Source: Halobaculum magnesiiphilum (GTDB lineage Archaea; Halobacteriota; Halobacteria; Halobacteriales; Haloferacaceae). Taken from it: a stretch of DNA of 64,000 bases. Of the stretch, positions 57,623 through 63,822 are shown in pieces. The stretch's first letter is position 1; each line of letters opens with the position of its first letter. The stretch covers positions 62,001-126,000 of the forward strand of contig NZ_CP081959.1 of the NCBI RefSeq assembly GCF_019823105.1, in the 5' to 3' direction. The translations under genes were made by a program, and so were the position numbers. Under the pieces are notes generated by a model. That model had not been told where the DNA came from, made no database searches, and saw nothing but the letters and a program-made list of their open reading frames with translations.

Positions 57623-57988
57623 TCAGACAACAGGCTCGACGACGATGTGTTGCTGAGTGAGTCGCGGCTGCTTCGCGTTGCCGTTCTTCTCATATTGGAT
57701 TACCCCATGTTCTGCAAGCACGCCGAGATCGCGGCTGACCTGTGCCTTGTCTCGTCCCACCTCGCGGGCGAGTGCTCGAACTGACTCGACCTCGGAGTCG
57801 CGGAGAGCCTCAATCAACTCACGACGCCTGGGTGTCAGCACTTCATCTGCAGCTTCCCAGCTGATGACCTGAACTCCGGTCATGCCACCACGTGCAAGGG
57901 ATCTGGCCATCTCAGCGCGCAGCTCAGTACCGTCGTTCTGTTCAGGATCACGGGGAGCTTTCGCGTCACTGGAATCTACGTTGGACAT
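57623..57988 (-). CDS. HTH regulator/antitoxin-like protein
   Basis: 121 residues. A winged helix lies at residues 50-115: LTPRRRELIEALRDSEVESVRALAREVGRDKAQVSRDLGVL, here cited in parts, with the recognition helix at VGRDKAQVSRDLG, then a wing EKNGNAKQPRLT. Acidic N-terminal tail. It is divergent from the small protein gene at 58175; proteins of this type often pair with that neighbour in haloarchaea, possibly as a toxin-antitoxin system. A palindrome precedes it. Confidence 0.78.
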   Translation of the reverse strand: MSNVDSSDAKAPRDPEQNDGTELRAEMARSLARGGMTGVQVISWEAADEVLTPRRRELIEALRDSEVESVRALAREVGRDKAQVSRDLGVLAEHGVIQYEKNGNAKQPRLTQQHIVVEPVV

Positions 57989-58174: not shown

Positions 58175-58525
58175 ATGCAATCTGAATTTGACTACCTGTA
58201 TCCAGCAGGCACGCATCGAGGAATCGAATTCCAGATCGGCGCGCGCGCCGATCCGAGCATCAACAACATCCACTCCTTCGCTGTCATTCTCTTCTTCGCG
58301 CAGGCAGATGGCACCCGAGTCGAGGTTGCGAAGGTCGACAATTCCGAACACGAGGAAGGGACGATTCACGTGGACAGGTACTACCGTGAAGTCGGAACCG
58401 ATGACAAGGACTTCGACGTTGACATCGGAGGGATGTGGGACGCCGATGAGTACCTAGAACAGAACTGGCGGAGGTTCGCAAAGACGTATCTCGAGAATCA
58501 CGGCGAAGGACCGAGAAGAGAGTAG
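58175..58525 (+). CDS. Small protein, probable partner of the HTH gene
   Basis: 116 residues: a compact alpha/beta domain with VILFFAQADGTRVEVAKVDN, then IHVDRYYREVGTDDKDF and a C-terminal helix YLEQNWRRFAKTYLENHGEG. It resembles small haloarchaeal proteins found beside HTH genes and TumE-like toxins, so a toxin role is possible but unproven. It ends 59 bases before the degenerate first CRISPR repeat, on the same strand, and its transcript could run into the array. Confidence 0.65.
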   Translation: MQSEFDYLYPAGTHRGIEFQIGARADPSINNIHSFAVILFFAQADGTRVEVAKVDNSEHEEGTIHVDRYYREVGTDDKDFDVDIGGMWDADEYLEQNWRRFAKTYLENHGEGPRRE

Positions 58526-58650: not shown

Positions 58651-60187
58651 GTTTCAGACGAACCCTTGTGGGGTTGAAGTCGGCGCTTGAAGGCGTGTCT
58701 GACGCCGACACGGACGGTTTCAGACGAACCCTTGTGGGGTTGAAGTCGGGCGGGGGTGAAACCAATTACACAAGCATCCAAGGTTTCAGACGAACCCTTG
58801 TGGGGTTGAAGTTCGCGGTGGGACTGTCCGCACCGGCCCGGAGACCAGGTTTCAGACGAACCCTTGTGGGGTTGAAGTCGACCGCATCCGGTGCACGTTC
58901 TGGTAATCGAAACGTTTCAGACGAACCCTTGTGGGGTTGAAGTCATCAGCGCCGTGTTCGTCCCCCCGGACTGGAGTAAGTTTCAGACGAACCCTTGTGG
59001 GGTTGAAGTTCGCATAGAAAAACCCATATGGAGTAGCCCCTTCGTTTCAGACGAACCCTTGTGGGGTTGAAGTCGGTAGGTCTCGGTTGTCCCGGATTCC
59101 ACGGTGTAGGTGTTTCAGACGAACCCTTGTGGGGTTGAAGTAACCGGTGTGACGACGGCGCGCGTCGCCCACAGTGGTTTCAGACGAACCCTTGTGGGGT
59201 TGAAGTCCACCCTGCGCGAGGCAGCGACGGCCCCCGAGGTCGTTTCAGACGAACCCTTGTGGGGTTGAAGTTTCCGCGCGACCTCACCCTCGTCAACGAG
59301 GTACTCGTTTCAGACGAACCCTTGTGGGGTTGAAGTCATGCTCTCGACGGCGGCCGCGTCGGTCAGCTCCGCGTTTCAGACGAACCCTTGTGGGGTTGAA
59401 GTACATCCGCGTTCCCGACCCTGAGAACATCCGGACGGTTTCAGACGAACCCTTGTGGGGTTGAAGTGTCGATGTCCAAAGTTTGCTTAGGAATAGACCA
59501 TCTAGTTTCAGACGAACCCTTGTGGGGTTGAAGTATGCGCGCCGGGCGACTGATTATGGACCTCCTAGTTTCAGACGAACCCTTGTGGGGTTGAAGTAGT
59601 TCAAATGGCAGATAGATTAGTGATGAAAGCCTTGTTTCAGACGAACCCTTGTGGGGTTGAAGTTCGCGAGCGTCGGCGGCCAAGCGCGAGGGGCGCGGGT
59701 TTCAGACGAACCCTTGTGGGGTTGAAGTACAGTCCGGGAGAACCCAGGCGGGACGCGCGTTCGTGTTTCAGACGAACCCTTGTGGGGTTGAAGTGTCGGT
59801 GATGTTGCTCACAAGGCCCCACTTCCCCGTTTCAGACGAACCCTTGTGGGGTTGAAGTAAGGCAACGGAACCGGCCGCAACCAGCGCCGGCTTGGTTTCA
59901 GACGAACCCTTGTGGGGTTGAAGTATCGGCCGATAGATCTCCACGCGCTAACAAGCCTGGTTTCAGACGAACCCTTGTGGGATTGAAGCACCTGCCCGCG
60001 GAAGTTCGACGGGATTGACTACAAGTTTCAGACGAACCCTTGTGGGGTTGAAGCCGGCAGTGGCCGCAGATCCCGCCGTCGCGGCCGTCCGTTTCAGACG
60101 AACCTATGTGGGGTTGAAGCGTACCGGCAGGCCGCTTGGTCGACGACCGCAACCCAGGTTTCAGACGAATTCTTGTAAAATGGGTGC
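58651..60187 (+). CRISPR. CRISPR array, 24 repeats, type I-B-like repeat
   Basis: Repeats of 30 bases begin GTTTCAGACGAACCC and end TGTGGGGTTGAAGT or -GC. Starts: 58651, 58717, 58783, 58849, 58914, 58980, 59044, 59112, 59177, 59242, 59307, 59373, 59438, 59505, 59568, 59634, 59699, 59765, 59829, 59895, 59960, 60025, 60091, 60158. Spacers are 33-38 bases, mostly 35-36. The first 20 repeats end in T; the next three end in C, one of them with GGGATTGAAGC as in Haloferax volcanii. The repeat at 60091 has CTATG for CCTTG, and the last (60158) is degenerate. Direction left to right by the 3' handle. No cas genes and no recognisable leader in the window. Confidence 0.97.
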
Positions 60188-60213: not shown

Positions 60214-62421
60214 TCACCCAAACTCCCCCAGCGACGGCTCCACAACGCCCGACACCTCCCGATGAATCCGCTCGCGATCCCACCCAATTGGCGAGACCAC
60301 ACTCTCGGCAGCCCGAATCGCCTCGCGACGATACCACTCGACATCATACCGCTCTAGCGACTCATACCCCAGCCGAACCCGTCCCAGCCCAGTCGCTTCA
60401 TCATCCACCACCAGATACTCGACGCGCTGGCCGGGTTCGAGCGCACAGTCCTTCCATTTCGCGCGCTTCAACGCCGCCACGGTCACGGTCTCGTACCGGT
60501 ACTGCTCAGCGCGCTTCGACACCCGCTGGGTCACCAGCAACTCCGACGGGTCCACCTCACCCTCTTCCAGCCGCCTGAGCCACCGTCGCAGCTCTCCAAC
60601 GACGGCCTCCACGTCATGGGTCCGATCTAACGTCCGGATCAATGTCGCCTGCAACCGCACGATCCACGCCGGGGTATCATCCTGGCGGCACTCGATCCCC
60701 CGGGTCTTCACCGCTTCACCCACACCTTCCTCTGTATATGACTCCCCACGTCGCCGGCCGAAGTACCGAGTGAGCGCCCCTCCATCCCTACCGCGACGGG
60801 GACAGAAGGCGACCCACTCGAAGGCGCCCTCGTACTCCAACTCGATACCCACCTCCGAACTCACTTCCTGGGCAATCGTACCAAGCGCCCGTCGGTCGGT
60901 TTTAGCAACCTCTGGCGCCGGTGTCACCCAGATCGAATCGACGATTCCGTGCAGCACGCGCCACCCGCCCGCTTCCAGTGCAGCTTTCGCATCTAACAGG
61001 ATCTCCCGAGCAAACGCGTTGATTGCCTCGTGGCACTCGATCCGGCCGTACTTCGCGTTCGAGAAGCCCTGATAGCCAAAGCAGCTGACGAGGATCCACT
61101 TGATCGCCGCCGAGCGTGACTCCAACGCCGCGATCTCCTCTGGATCGTCCGACTCCCGAATCTGCTGCTTGATCGCGTCCCGCCCATCAATAAGCGGTCC
61201 TAACACAGCGGGGAGGTACCCATCTCGCTCGCAAATCGAATACCCCAGGTTTGGAACCGAGTCGTTGTCACAGCAGCCACACCGCACCGTCTCGGGTGAG
61301 ATGTTGTACTCGCGAATGATGTTCGGATACAGCGAGGAGAAGTCGAGCTCGTGGACGTCCTCGTGGACTCCAACCTCTGGCGCCAATGTCGTACCGCCGC
61401 GATCGGCAGTATCGAGCGTCGCCGCCGAGCGGAAGAATTCCGGGCGCCACGCTTGCCACGGCACCAATACGCCCCGCGAACGCGCTTCCCGGATCTGCAT
61501 CGCCGTCAGCACCCGCCCGATCGACGCCCAGCCCAACTCCTGTAAGGGCAGTCCAGCCCGCTCAACAAGATCGAGACAGCCCTCGAGGCCTGCCTCGTGC
61601 AAGAAAAACGAGTTTGAGCGGTCGAGCAGTACTCTCCCCGGCACTGAATATCGTGCTGGCGAGTGGCCGACGTTCCCGTAGCTTGTGTACGTCGAGGCCG
61701 ATGCCAGCTGTGTATAGCCCGGTTCGCGCCCCAGTTCGAACGGCTGGAGCCCGTACCCCCCTGCCGCCTCGAACAGCAGGGGGACGACCTCAGCGGTATC
61801 GACGATCAGCACGTCCGGGTCGACGCTCGCGACGCGCTCGCCAACCGCCTCGACCACCTCCCGCGGCGTCGATCCCACTGACTCACCGTCGATGGAGAGT
61901 TTGGGCAGCGCTTCTACCCCGGACTCGTGGGCCGGAAACCCCAGTTCAAGGGTCCGAAGCTCGCGCACATCCGTGTCGGGCGCTGGATCCGTCCCGGTTT
62001 CGAGCGTATACCGAAACTGCCGCGTCACATCGACGTTGTAGCAGGTGTAGGTGTCCGCCGCGCCGAACTGCTGGACTCGCCGGGCGACCGAACGGACGTC
62101 ATCGATCTCGCGACACTCTATCTTGAGTACCGGCCGGGCATCAGAACGGAACGTCTGGCGCCACACGTCGACCGAGAGCGACTCGACGGCTGCCTGACCC
62201 CTGAGGAACGTCCGGAGGTCCTCGAGGGGCTCAGTGAGCGCCCCACGCGCCGGCAGCTGCACTCGTGGCGTCTGGCCCCCGTGCTCACCGTACAACTCCG
62301 AAACCGGCGCACCGACGTACATCGTCGGCCGGTAGTCGTCGACGCGTGTGCGTTCGACACCGTCGGCCGTGAGGCGCCACTCGACGACCGTGGTACCGTC
62401 GTAGTCGATCGCGAGCACCAT
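60214..62421 (-). CDS. polB: Family B DNA polymerase with degenerate motifs (PolB2-like)
   Basis: 735 residues. Motif A is canonical (DFSSLYPNII). Motif B is altered: KWILVSCFGYQGF lacks the Asn and Tyr of KxxxNSxYG. Motif C reads GIVDSIWV, keeping one Asp where active enzymes have DTD. The exonuclease region (LRTLELGFPAHES) lacks the DxE pair. This combination matches archaeal PolB2-type polymerases, thought to have weak or no standard activity. It is the third gene of an operon, 2 bases after the coiled-coil gene. Accessory, translesion or structural role inferred. It is unrelated to CRISPR despite its position. Confidence 0.85.
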   Translation of the reverse strand: MVLAIDYDGTTVVEWRLTADGVERTRVDDYRPTMYVGAPVSELYGEHGGQTPRVQLPARGALTEPLEDLRTFLRGQAAVESLSVDVWRQTFRSDARPVLKIECREIDDVRSVARRVQQFGAADTYTCYNVDVTRQFRYTLETGTDPAPDTDVRELRTLELGFPAHESGVEALPKLSIDGESVGSTPREVVEAVGERVASVDPDVLIVDTAEVVPLLFEAAGGYGLQPFELGREPGYTQLASASTYTSYGNVGHSPARYSVPGRVLLDRSNSFFLHEAGLEGCLDLVERAGLPLQELGWASIGRVLTAMQIREARSRGVLVPWQAWRPEFFRSAATLDTADRGGTTLAPEVGVHEDVHELDFSSLYPNIIREYNISPETVRCGCCDNDSVPNLGYSICERDGYLPAVLGPLIDGRDAIKQQIRESDDPEEIAALESRSAAIKWILVSCFGYQGFSNAKYGRIECHEAINAFAREILLDAKAALEAGGWRVLHGIVDSIWVTPAPEVAKTDRRALGTIAQEVSSEVGIELEYEGAFEWVAFCPRRGRDGGALTRYFGRRRGESYTEEGVGEAVKTRGIECRQDDTPAWIVRLQATLIRTLDRTHDVEAVVGELRRWLRRLEEGEVDPSELLVTQRVSKRAEQYRYETVTVAALKRAKWKDCALEPGQRVEYLVVDDEATGLGRVRLGYESLERYDVEWYRREAIRAAESVVSPIGWDRERIHREVSGVVEPSLGEFG

Positions 62422-62423
62422 CG

Positions 62424-62738
62424 CTATCGCTCACGCTCGACCGGCGTCTCGGCGGCCTCGGGGCCGTCCTCGAGACGCGCCTCCAACTCCGCAACACGCT
62501 CTTCGAGTTCGTCGATTCGATCCTCCTGTTCGAGGTCAATACTCACCAGGACGGGCGCGAGCTGGTCGGGGTGGTTCAGGTGGCTTGCAGCGTCGGCGTG
62601 CTCGCGAGCGTAGGTGAACAGCCGGTCGAGCAGCGGCTGGTGGCGCCAGCGCAGCGCTCGCCGGAAGTCGCCCCACTCGTCTTCCATCCGCCCGAGTACA
62701 TCGCGAAACGTCGGGTTCGTGCGCCCCACGCTCACCAC
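62424..62738 (-). CDS. Small coiled-coil protein of the PolB operon
   Basis: 104 residues: a basic and aromatic N-terminal helix (RMEDEWGDFRRALRWRHQPLLD) and a clear coiled coil at the C-terminus (EQEDRIDELEERVAELEARLED). No named family. It overlaps the RecA-like gene by 7 bases and ends 2 bases before PolB, so all three are co-translated. It probably bridges the two larger proteins. Confidence 0.7.
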   Translation of the reverse strand: MVSVGRTNPTFRDVLGRMEDEWGDFRRALRWRHQPLLDRLFTYAREHADAASHLNHPDQLAPVLVSIDLEQEDRIDELEERVAELEARLEDGPEAAETPVERER

Positions 62739-63484
62739 CCCTCCGGGGTGACTGGGGATGTCGTCGACGTTGACGAGGCGCTCGGCGACTCACCAGCGGT
62801 GTCGACCGGGGCGTCGACGGCGCGAGCGCGGTGCTGGATGATCTCCCGCCAGAAAGCGAGCGTCGTCTGGAGCCACCCGTCGCCGGTGTGGTAGACGAGC
62901 GTCTCCGCGTCGGACTCGGTGTCGTCGCTGGTGAACCGTGGTCCAAAGGGCGTCGCCTGGCAGGTGAGTGTCTCCGCTGCAGCGGCCTCGATCGGCGCCG
63001 ACAACTCGTCGTCGCGAGCGCGAGTGAGCACGACCGGAAGATCCCGCTCTCGAGCAATCCCGGCGAGCGTCGCCAAGCGCTGTACCAGCAACTCCTGTGC
63101 CTGCTCCCGTGGGATGTCGTCCTCGCGATACAACAGATCCATCGCGGGAACGACCACGAGCGCCGGATCGGTGCGCTCGAGGGCTGCGTTCGACACGACC
63201 CGCGGCAGCCGATCGAGCAGCGAGGCGTGCTGGTAGGCCGTAAAGCCGCGAGCGGTGGTGATCCGCTCCAAGTACTGGGGGTGCGGGGCAAGCGTCGCGA
63301 GCGTCGATGTCTGGACGTGCCCGCCGGCGTCGACCCAGAAGGCGTGATCACCCGAAGAGAGGAGCTGGTCGAGAACGAGCGCGCACAACGGCTCGGCGCC
63401 GAGCTCGGCGTCGACCTCTAAGAGCGTCACGCCCGCTTCGAGCGTGGGCAGTTCGACACCATCGTGCGGCTGGTCGCGATGCAT
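62732..63484 (-). CDS. RecA/RadB-fold protein lacking the Walker A lysine
   Basis: 250 residues. VTLLEVDAELGAEPLCALVLDQLLSSGDHAFWV, cited in parts, occupies the first strand and P-loop position but has no GxxGxGKT; a Walker-B-like strand is PALVVVPAMDLLY, followed by LVQRLATLAGIARERDLPVVLTRA, as in RecA/RadB proteins. It is probably unable to hydrolyse ATP. First gene of the operon with the coiled-coil protein and PolB. Bacterial ImuA, RecA-like and without ATPase function, similarly accompanies accessory polymerases. The ATG at 63484 lies 27 bases from TTATGC. Confidence 0.68.
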   Translation of the reverse strand: MHRDQPHDGVELPTLEAGVTLLEVDAELGAEPLCALVLDQLLSSGDHAFWVDAGGHVQTSTLATLAPHPQYLERITTARGFTAYQHASLLDRLPRVVSNAALERTDPALVVVPAMDLLYREDDIPREQAQELLVQRLATLAGIARERDLPVVLTRARDDELSAPIEAAAAETLTCQATPFGPRFTSDDTESDAETLVYHTGDGWLQTTLAFWREIIQHRARAVDAPVDTAGESPSASSTSTTSPVTPEGW

Positions 63485-63822
63485 GCTAAAACGCACGGAG
63501 TGCGTGCATAAGGGGCTCAGCCATGCATGGAGAGTGGAAGTGAAAGTGAACGGCTCAGCGAGTCTGAAACGGTGGCTGGAGGTCTGATTGCGTCCGGTTT
63601 CTGCGGTTGCACTTGTTAGGGTGTTTATCCCTGATGGCGTCGGTGGCGACCGGAAGTGATCAGTATCGAGTCGGTTGCTCTGGGACCGTCGTGAGGATCG
63701 GTGCAACCGCGATGAGGTGAGTCCGCGGGTCCACGACTCACCTGAAGGCCGTGACCGCCGACTCAATCGCGGTGGGCCTAGTCTGCTTGCAACTGAACCC
63801 CGCGTAGGTTCAGCAACTCGAC
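63485..63822. other. Intergenic stretch with nested inverted repeats
   Basis: No credible gene. AGGTGAGTC (63715-63723) pairs with GACTCACCT (63735-63743), inside ACCGCGAT (63706-63713)/ATCGCGGT (63766-63773). CGGTTGC (63672-63678) can pair alternatively with GCAACCG (63703-63709). CTGAACC (63793-63799) pairs with GGTTCAG (63807-63813), next to the stop of the partial gene. May be a structured RNA or terminators. Confidence 0.5.
63491..63505. promoter_or_regulatory. Operator palindrome of the PolB operon
   Basis: ACGCAC-GGA-GTGCGT, perfect 6-base arms, lies between the TATA-like TTATGC (63511-63506 on the minus strand, 27 bases before the ATG) and the start codon. CCATGCATGG, another palindrome, is at 63521-63530. 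A repressor bound here would block the operon. Confidence 0.6.

Follow-up and report, generated by a model that had tools for sequence, protein, structure and literature searches.

Archaeal PolB2 has been placed in one predicted operon with an inactivated RadA and an arCOG07300 protein by Makarova 2014, who noted haloarchaeal copies and favoured inactivation of PolB2 (PMC4104785). Timinskas 2025 named the two partners iRadA and PPB2, modelled a 1:1:3 complex and compared it with Pol V; models for 40 complexes were given, the MGRT arm and the D(K/R) motif were reported, and clamp motifs were found in a small fraction of PolB2 (PMC11791011). Feng et al. described the second Asp of motif C as the metal ligand and Sulfolobus Dpo2 as an active extender polymerase that has no proofreading (PMC8764526). 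As to regulation, Boubriak 2008 found the motif TTTCACTTTCA upstream of radA1, top6B, vng17 and vng280, all induced by ultraviolet B (UV-B) light in Halobacterium, with a near match at npa; it was proposed as a regulator site and likened to the Sulfolobus Sta1 site, the regulator was left open, and polB2 was not mentioned (PMC2556686). Here we describe an operon in a 64,000-nucleotide stretch of the Halobaculum magnesiiphilum genome (assembly GCF_019823105.1, contig NZ_CP081959.1, positions 62,001 to 126,000; termed the window), which, judged by its genes and motifs, is a complete iRadA-PPB2-PolB2 operon of the archaeal PolB2 mutasome type, and whose promoter carries a UV-B-type box (the UV box). 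With a probability of roughly 0.78, we propose that it encodes a damage-induced PolB2 translesion mutasome that is switched on via this shared box.

The operon comprises three co-directional genes on the minus strand in the order iRadA-PPB2-PolB2, separated by two 2-base gaps:

62732..63484, minus strand: iRadA, an inactive RadA/Rad51-fold protein of 250 residues without Walker A (from PDB profile, AlphaFold2 model, Foldseek and an alignment of 36 relatives).
62424..62729, minus strand: PPB2, an arCOG07300-type helical adaptor of 101 residues with a GTG start at 62729 and an MGRT arm (from the invariant N-terminal residues, the RefSeq start spacing of Halobaculum roseum and a model).
60214..62421, minus strand: PolB2, a family B DNA polymerase of 735 residues (NCBIfam NF004418, 919.5 bits against a cut-off of 692; Pfam PF00136, 90.4 bits).

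All three genes are real and co-directional, as the initial annotation had claimed, and its 2-base gap upstream of polB stands. Its 7-base overlap between iRadA and PPB2 does not, because the PPB2 start had been placed three codons too early; that start was replaced by the GTG at 62729, in keeping with the invariance of MGRT and with the RefSeq annotation of H. roseum, in which the iRadA-PPB2 spacing is identical.

Compared to the described archaeal PolB2 mutasomes, the window operon has the same three families in the same order, adjacent and co-oriented, with an MGRT arm that includes Arg3 and Arg9, a RadA fold devoid of the ATPase site, and a PolB2 with the D(K/R) motif, a changed motif C (HxIVD) that keeps the second Asp, and a decayed exonuclease domain whose catalytic residues are lost. 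It differs in being haloarchaeal and probably plasmid-borne, and in having a promoter with the haloarchaeal UV box. The archaeal mutasome-like cassette suggested at first is right and equals the published interpretation of the trio (PMC4104785, PMC11791011); this part is supported, but not new. The bacterial ImuA-ImuB-DnaE2 and Pol V (UmuC-UmuD'2-RecA) systems likewise pair a damage-linked error-prone polymerase with a RecA-family partner, whereas the polymerase here belongs to family B and the promoter is archaeal, which makes the operon an analogue rather than a member; family assignment of its three genes found no DnaE2, ImuB, UmuC or UmuD.

PolB2 occurs in 76 of 122 good Halobacteriales genomes when fragments are counted. 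In the 30 best PolB2 loci, picked by PolB2 similarity alone, both PPB2 and iRadA are present in all 30. In two of these loci iRadA is partial, in one of them because the locus itself stops within the gene. Homologous operons without the RecA-like gene, a check raised in the initial annotation, were not met among them. The gene order is also kept in a survey of 82 loci selected around matches to iRadA or PolB2, a few of which lack PolB2 or have a broken copy.

The iRadA protein was matched by profile to RadA/Rad51 chains in the PDB (RadA 4a6p, E=7.8e-13; RadB, 1e-6), and its AlphaFold2 model, with a pLDDT of 84, gave RadA 5jee as the best Foldseek match (E=6e-12), the query TM-scores of the listed matches being 0.55-0.60. 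It adopts a RadA/Rad51 fold that lacks both the ATPase site and the N-terminal helical domain. A direct hhalign comparison to six close RadA sequences was weak, with a probability of 19%, probably owing to the shallowness of that RadA set; the homology was settled by Foldseek and by the profile search of the PDB. The RecA fold without a Walker A lysine is thereby confirmed, and profile and fold both show a RadA/Rad51-like protein, rather than one unrelated to RecA/RadB.

In an alignment of 32 PPB2 sequences, the window included, residues M1, G2, R3, T4, T7 and R9 are invariant, and across the 82 operons the N-terminus reads [MV]GRT in 77 and LGRT in three more. The predicted structure (pLDDT 89) consists of helices, with a 31-residue helix at the C-terminus, in line with the coiled-coil protein of the initial annotation. 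Only weak Pfam matches were obtained for PPB2, all under the cut-off, and these were disregarded. An iRadA-PPB2 pair with no PolB2 nearby was seen on contig C2 of genome G012, where PPB2 begins with MGRA and not MGRT. There is also a plasmid class with a longer iRadA (~316 residues, with an insert near residue 102), in which PPB2 and PolB2 are often separated by 0.5-8 kb of other genes; on the Halobaculum rubrum plasmid NZ_CP082285.1 the insert between them is ~3.4 kb long and contains a 586-residue gene, a helix-turn-helix gene and a PemK-like gene.

The window PolB2 was aligned with Pyrococcus abyssi PolB as reference and, separately, with 76 haloarchaeal relatives (77 sequences in all), which located the following elements, all on the minus strand:

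61618..61623, minus strand: D(K/R) motif, Asp267-Arg268, the reported contact of the PPB2 arm (role from PMC11791011); the Asp is kept in 75/77 haloarchaeal PolB2 sequences, an Arg follows in only 34/77.
61324..61344, minus strand: motif A, DFSSLYP, with intact Asp360 (77/77).
61063..61101, minus strand: motif B, KWILVSCFGYQGF, with the Lys kept and the usual Asn replaced by Val (Lys441, Val445 and Gly449 in 77/77; aligned with P. abyssi PolB).
60934..60951, minus strand: motif C, HGIVDS, with the first Asp replaced by Ile and the second, Asp495, kept (Asp495 in 77/77, Ile493 and His491 each in 76/77).
60217..60240, minus strand: EPSLGEFG, a candidate PCNA-binding peptide at the C-terminus (LxxF/Y tail in 68/77 relatives).

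These motifs bear out the initial description of the polymerase: motif A is intact, motif B is altered, HGIVDS replaces the DTD core of motif C, and the alignment with P. abyssi PolB found the exonuclease residues absent. Such losses could mean that PolB2 is catalytically dead and that the trio is a structural factor, for instance one that stabilizes or removes stalled forks or regulates replication; the missing first Asp of motif C, the missing Asn of motif B and the loss of all exonuclease residues fit that idea, and Makarova 2014 favoured inactivation (PMC4104785). However, the retention of Asp360 and Asp495 in 77/77 sequences points to selection acting on the active site, and Sulfolobus Dpo2, with a motif C of this kind, is an active extender (PMC8764526). 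Since both metal-binding Asp residues are kept, as in active Dpo2, the window PolB2 is probably an active enzyme; the structural, degenerate alternative of the initial annotation is weakened, and we regard it as unlikely. The tail EPSLGEFG resembles those of two polymerases of the same genome, the Y-family polymerase (GQVDLGEFG) and PolB3 (QTGLGSFM), and may bring PolB2 to PCNA. An LxxF/Y tail on nearly all haloarchaeal PolB2 differs from the small fraction with clamp motifs reported for archaeal PolB2 at large (PMC11791011).

The promoter upstream of iRadA contains four elements:

63534..63550, minus strand: UV box TTCACTTTCACTTCCAC, in which TTCACTTYCAC occurs twice with an overlap, conserved in Halobaculum and three further relatives, with a 10/11 match to the UV-B motif.
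63519..63525, minus strand: CATGGCT element, flanked by the UV box on one side and the TATA-like element on the other, and conserved in the footprint alignment.
63507..63513, minus strand: TATA-like element CCTTATG, ~25 nt upstream of the iRadA ATG, tentatively assigned from position and conservation.
63491..63505, strand not assigned: palindrome ACGCACGGAGTGCGT (ACGCAC-GGA-GTGCGT), judged not to be a conserved regulatory site.

The conserved part, TTCACTTTCACTTCCAC-N8-CATGGCT-TATA, spans 63507-63550, and its spaced pair, the box followed by CATGGCT after 2-8 bases, has 13 matches in 142 genomes compared to none for a reversed control. As the TATA-like element lies ~25 nt before the ATG, the sequence suggests a leaderless iRadA mRNA. 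The initial annotation had instead suggested that the operon has its own repressor site, the palindrome at 63491-63505. A repressor specific to the operon could act there, downstream of the TATA-like element and ahead of the start codon; however, H. roseum, H. rubrum and H. litoreum have broken arms, three further relatives lack the palindrome, and inverted repeats with 6-bp arms are found in these promoters about as often as chance predicts (18/82, against 15.7 in shuffles). Decay in relatives and chance frequency speak against the palindrome as an operator, and a private repressor of this kind is scarcely credible; the conserved site is a different one, common to other repair genes.

Within the 3.73-Mb genome, TTCACTTYCAC occurs 14 times, two of these being the overlapping copies in the window promoter, compared to three occurrences of the reversed pattern; by our own arithmetic, any one 150-base promoter would contain a site with a probability of ~3 in 10,000 at that genome density. 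The box precedes the genes for a Y-family polymerase, top6B, a divergent Orc, hjc, radA, RPA, a DUF5790 protein and small proteins of unknown function, in addition to both iRadA-PPB2-PolB2 operons, chromosomal and window. Pfam confirmed the Y-family polymerase, Cdc6/Orc, Hjc and Rad51 assignments and found an HATPase domain in the top6B product; the RPA gene had no Pfam match and was named by similarity. Since the box also stands upstream of radA, RPA, top6B, hjc, the Y-family polymerase gene, the Orc gene and the chromosomal operon, the promoter sequence places the window operon, with some confidence, in a haloarchaeal DNA-damage regulon.

Across genomes, a strict form of the box, CACTTTCACTTTCACY, has matches in 73 of 142 genomes, and a permuted 16-mer has none. 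The permuted 16-mer served as the control because CACTTTCACTTTCAC is mirror-symmetric, so that a reversed pattern is of no use for it; TTCACTTYCAC was used for the own-genome control. The genes behind 90 strict-box sites were read, and include radA (13), top6B (11), RPA (6), a small Cys-containing protein (19) and a ~53-residue protein (10). The radA, top6B and RPA genes were named from their sequences, whereas downstream genes of the genome-wide sites were chosen by a length-and-acidity score, which makes the small-protein and threonine-dehydratase-like groups less sure. Two very small protein families (~50 and ~53 residues) are the commonest and the fourth commonest genes downstream of the strict box. 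Compared to the Halobacterium motif, the box, its position upstream of TATA, and the radA and top6B members are the same (PMC2556686); polY, hjc, RPA, Orc and the PolB2 operons are added here to the Boubriak 2008 list. No other archaeal paper with TTTCACTTTCA was among the matches listed in the open-licence literature, where no published link between the operon and the UV box was found either. With polB2 absent from Boubriak 2008, the connection of the box to PolB2 mutasomes, polY, hjc and Orc is, as far as could be checked in that literature, new.

We therefore propose the following course, for which the observed basis is the gene content, order, starts and motifs, the predicted folds of iRadA and PPB2, and the shared conserved box. 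DNA damage would raise transcription of the operon through the TTCACTTTCAC box shared with radA, RPA, top6B, hjc and the Y-family polymerase gene, an induction that we infer from the Halobacterium box. PolB2, iRadA and PPB2 would form a complex, most likely 1:1:3 by analogy with the published models, in which the non-ATPase RadA homologue and the helical adaptor hold the polymerase. Another polymerase, probably the co-regulated Y-family enzyme, would insert a nucleotide opposite the lesion, after which PolB2, without proofreading, would extend the mispaired end, as expected from the Sulfolobus extender; its C-terminal peptide may recruit it to PCNA.

Several observations weigh against this proposal. 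The operon in this organism is known from sequence alone; motif B and the first Asp of motif C are altered, so that the activity of PolB2 may be weak; and the window box is one base off the published 11-mer (GTTCACTTTCA versus TTTCACTTTCA). Moreover, only 18-19 of the 82 haloarchaeal mutasome operons carry the UV box, and the strict box is present in only 6 of 30 promoters of divergent Orc orthologues. In favour of the proposal, ACTTYCAC is found in 17 of 50 non-redundant mutasome promoters, against 0.4 in shuffles; another set, 22 of the 50, has GGAA-N4/5-GGAA instead, against 0.55 expected. The promoter type is clustered on the PolB2 tree, with 8 changes compared to 16 in shuffles.

Which protein reads the box is a separate matter. 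The Orc1-2 protein of Sulfolobus binds ANTTTC both in its own promoter and in other damage promoters, and Orc1-2 activation raises Dpo2 (PMC8764526, PMC9738581, PMC5817253). The Sulfolobus Dpo2 operon and the window operon encode orthologous polymerases behind a damage promoter in which short direct hexamers precede TATA; by contrast, the window box is a tandem CACTTTCAC, its regulator is only a candidate, and the system is read here from DNA. The ACTTTC of the haloarchaeal box fits the Sulfolobus hexamer. A core divergent Orc1/Cdc6 gene is present in 116 of 118 good haloarchaeal genomes, and in the genome studied here, where it lies on contig C1 at 1668832-1669959, it has a TTTCACTTTCAC box ~61 bases upstream of its start; TTTCAGTTTC variants were read by eye in ~7 more orthologue promoters beyond the six with the strict box. 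In about half of the core divergent Orc orthologues, the ATG is immediately preceded by GGTGAAAGTG, the reverse complement of CACTTTCACC. This could be an inverted box or else a Shine-Dalgarno sequence; because it may be the latter, it was left uncounted as a box. A local divergent Orc gene accompanies 1 of 19 operons with the UV box versus 38 of 63 others (Fisher p=1.4e-5, inflated because the operons are related and not independent). Many PolB2 operons with GGAA-N4/5-GGAA are immediately preceded by a co-oriented Orc-like gene, which in some cases extends up to the iRadA frame.

The best regulator candidate is, as a hypothesis, this core divergent Orc1/Cdc6 homologue, whose own promoter is boxed in the genome studied. 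A wider proposal can be made tentatively, and we hold it to be somewhat less probable than its opposite: haloarchaea would have an SOS-like regulon on the CACTTTCAC box, in which PolB2 mutasomes form the mutagenic arm and which is run by the near-universal divergent Orc1/Cdc6 paralogue in a role equivalent to that of Sulfolobus Orc1-2, while mutasomes outside it carry a private Orc and a GGAA-N4/5-GGAA box. Alternatively, the box may be a real damage-response site bound by another regulator, such as a winged-helix protein, with Orc merely one of its targets. The low share of Orc promoters with the strict box suits this alternative, as does the likeness to the Sta1 site drawn by Boubriak 2008, who named no regulator (PMC2556686); yet the Orc gene is near-universal and boxed in this genome, Sulfolobus Orc1-2 activates Dpo2 and binds its own promoter at ANTTTC, and box-less mutasome operons often have a local Orc of the same subfamily. 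We give a non-Orc regulator an even chance.

The operon lies on a contig of 271,515 bases (C2), which is probably a megaplasmid because it has two Orc genes of its own. Halobaculum plasmids carry the operon's nearest named relatives, with iRadA identities of 97% in H. roseum, 94% in H. rubrum and 76% in H. litoreum. A second iRadA-PPB2-PolB2 operon of the same genome is chromosomal (contig C1, 2725000-2740000) and has the UV box, and a third copy is broken (contig C3, 371000-390000). The trio might then be a plasmid replication or maintenance cassette and not serve damage tolerance, given that iRadA is found in 94 plasmid records, that many operons lie near Orc genes, and that the window contig is plasmid-like. 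Against this, chromosomal copies exist in the same order, including in this genome, the promoter box is common to repair genes, and polB2 of H. volcanii is deletable according to an unpublished remark (PMC7776575); we consider such a cassette very unlikely, and damage tolerance by a PolB2 mutasome the better account. Directly downstream of the polB2 stop is a CRISPR array (window 58651-60119) with 23 recognizable repeats (GTTTCAGACGAACCCTTGTGGGGTTGAAG, plus strand) and a decayed last unit near 60158; its neighbours encode an HVO_A0114-family winged-helix protein (57623-57988, minus strand) and a DUF7718 protein (58175-58525, plus strand).

The operon type itself was known, whereas the switch for haloarchaeal DNA-damage tolerance is not settled in the papers found. 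In one genome, a single short box joins topoisomerase VI, the recombination proteins RadA, RPA and Hjc, translesion polymerases of two kinds and an Orc-type candidate, which predicts that PolB2 mutagenesis in haloarchaea is damage-inducible and makes the question of the switch testable in tractable haloarchaeal laboratory strains. Such kits are common on haloarchaeal plasmids; bacterial plasmids carry relatives of Pol V, to which the haloarchaeal plasmid mutasomes are comparable. If the Orc-type candidate proved to be the regulator, an Orc-controlled damage response would be common to two major archaeal branches.

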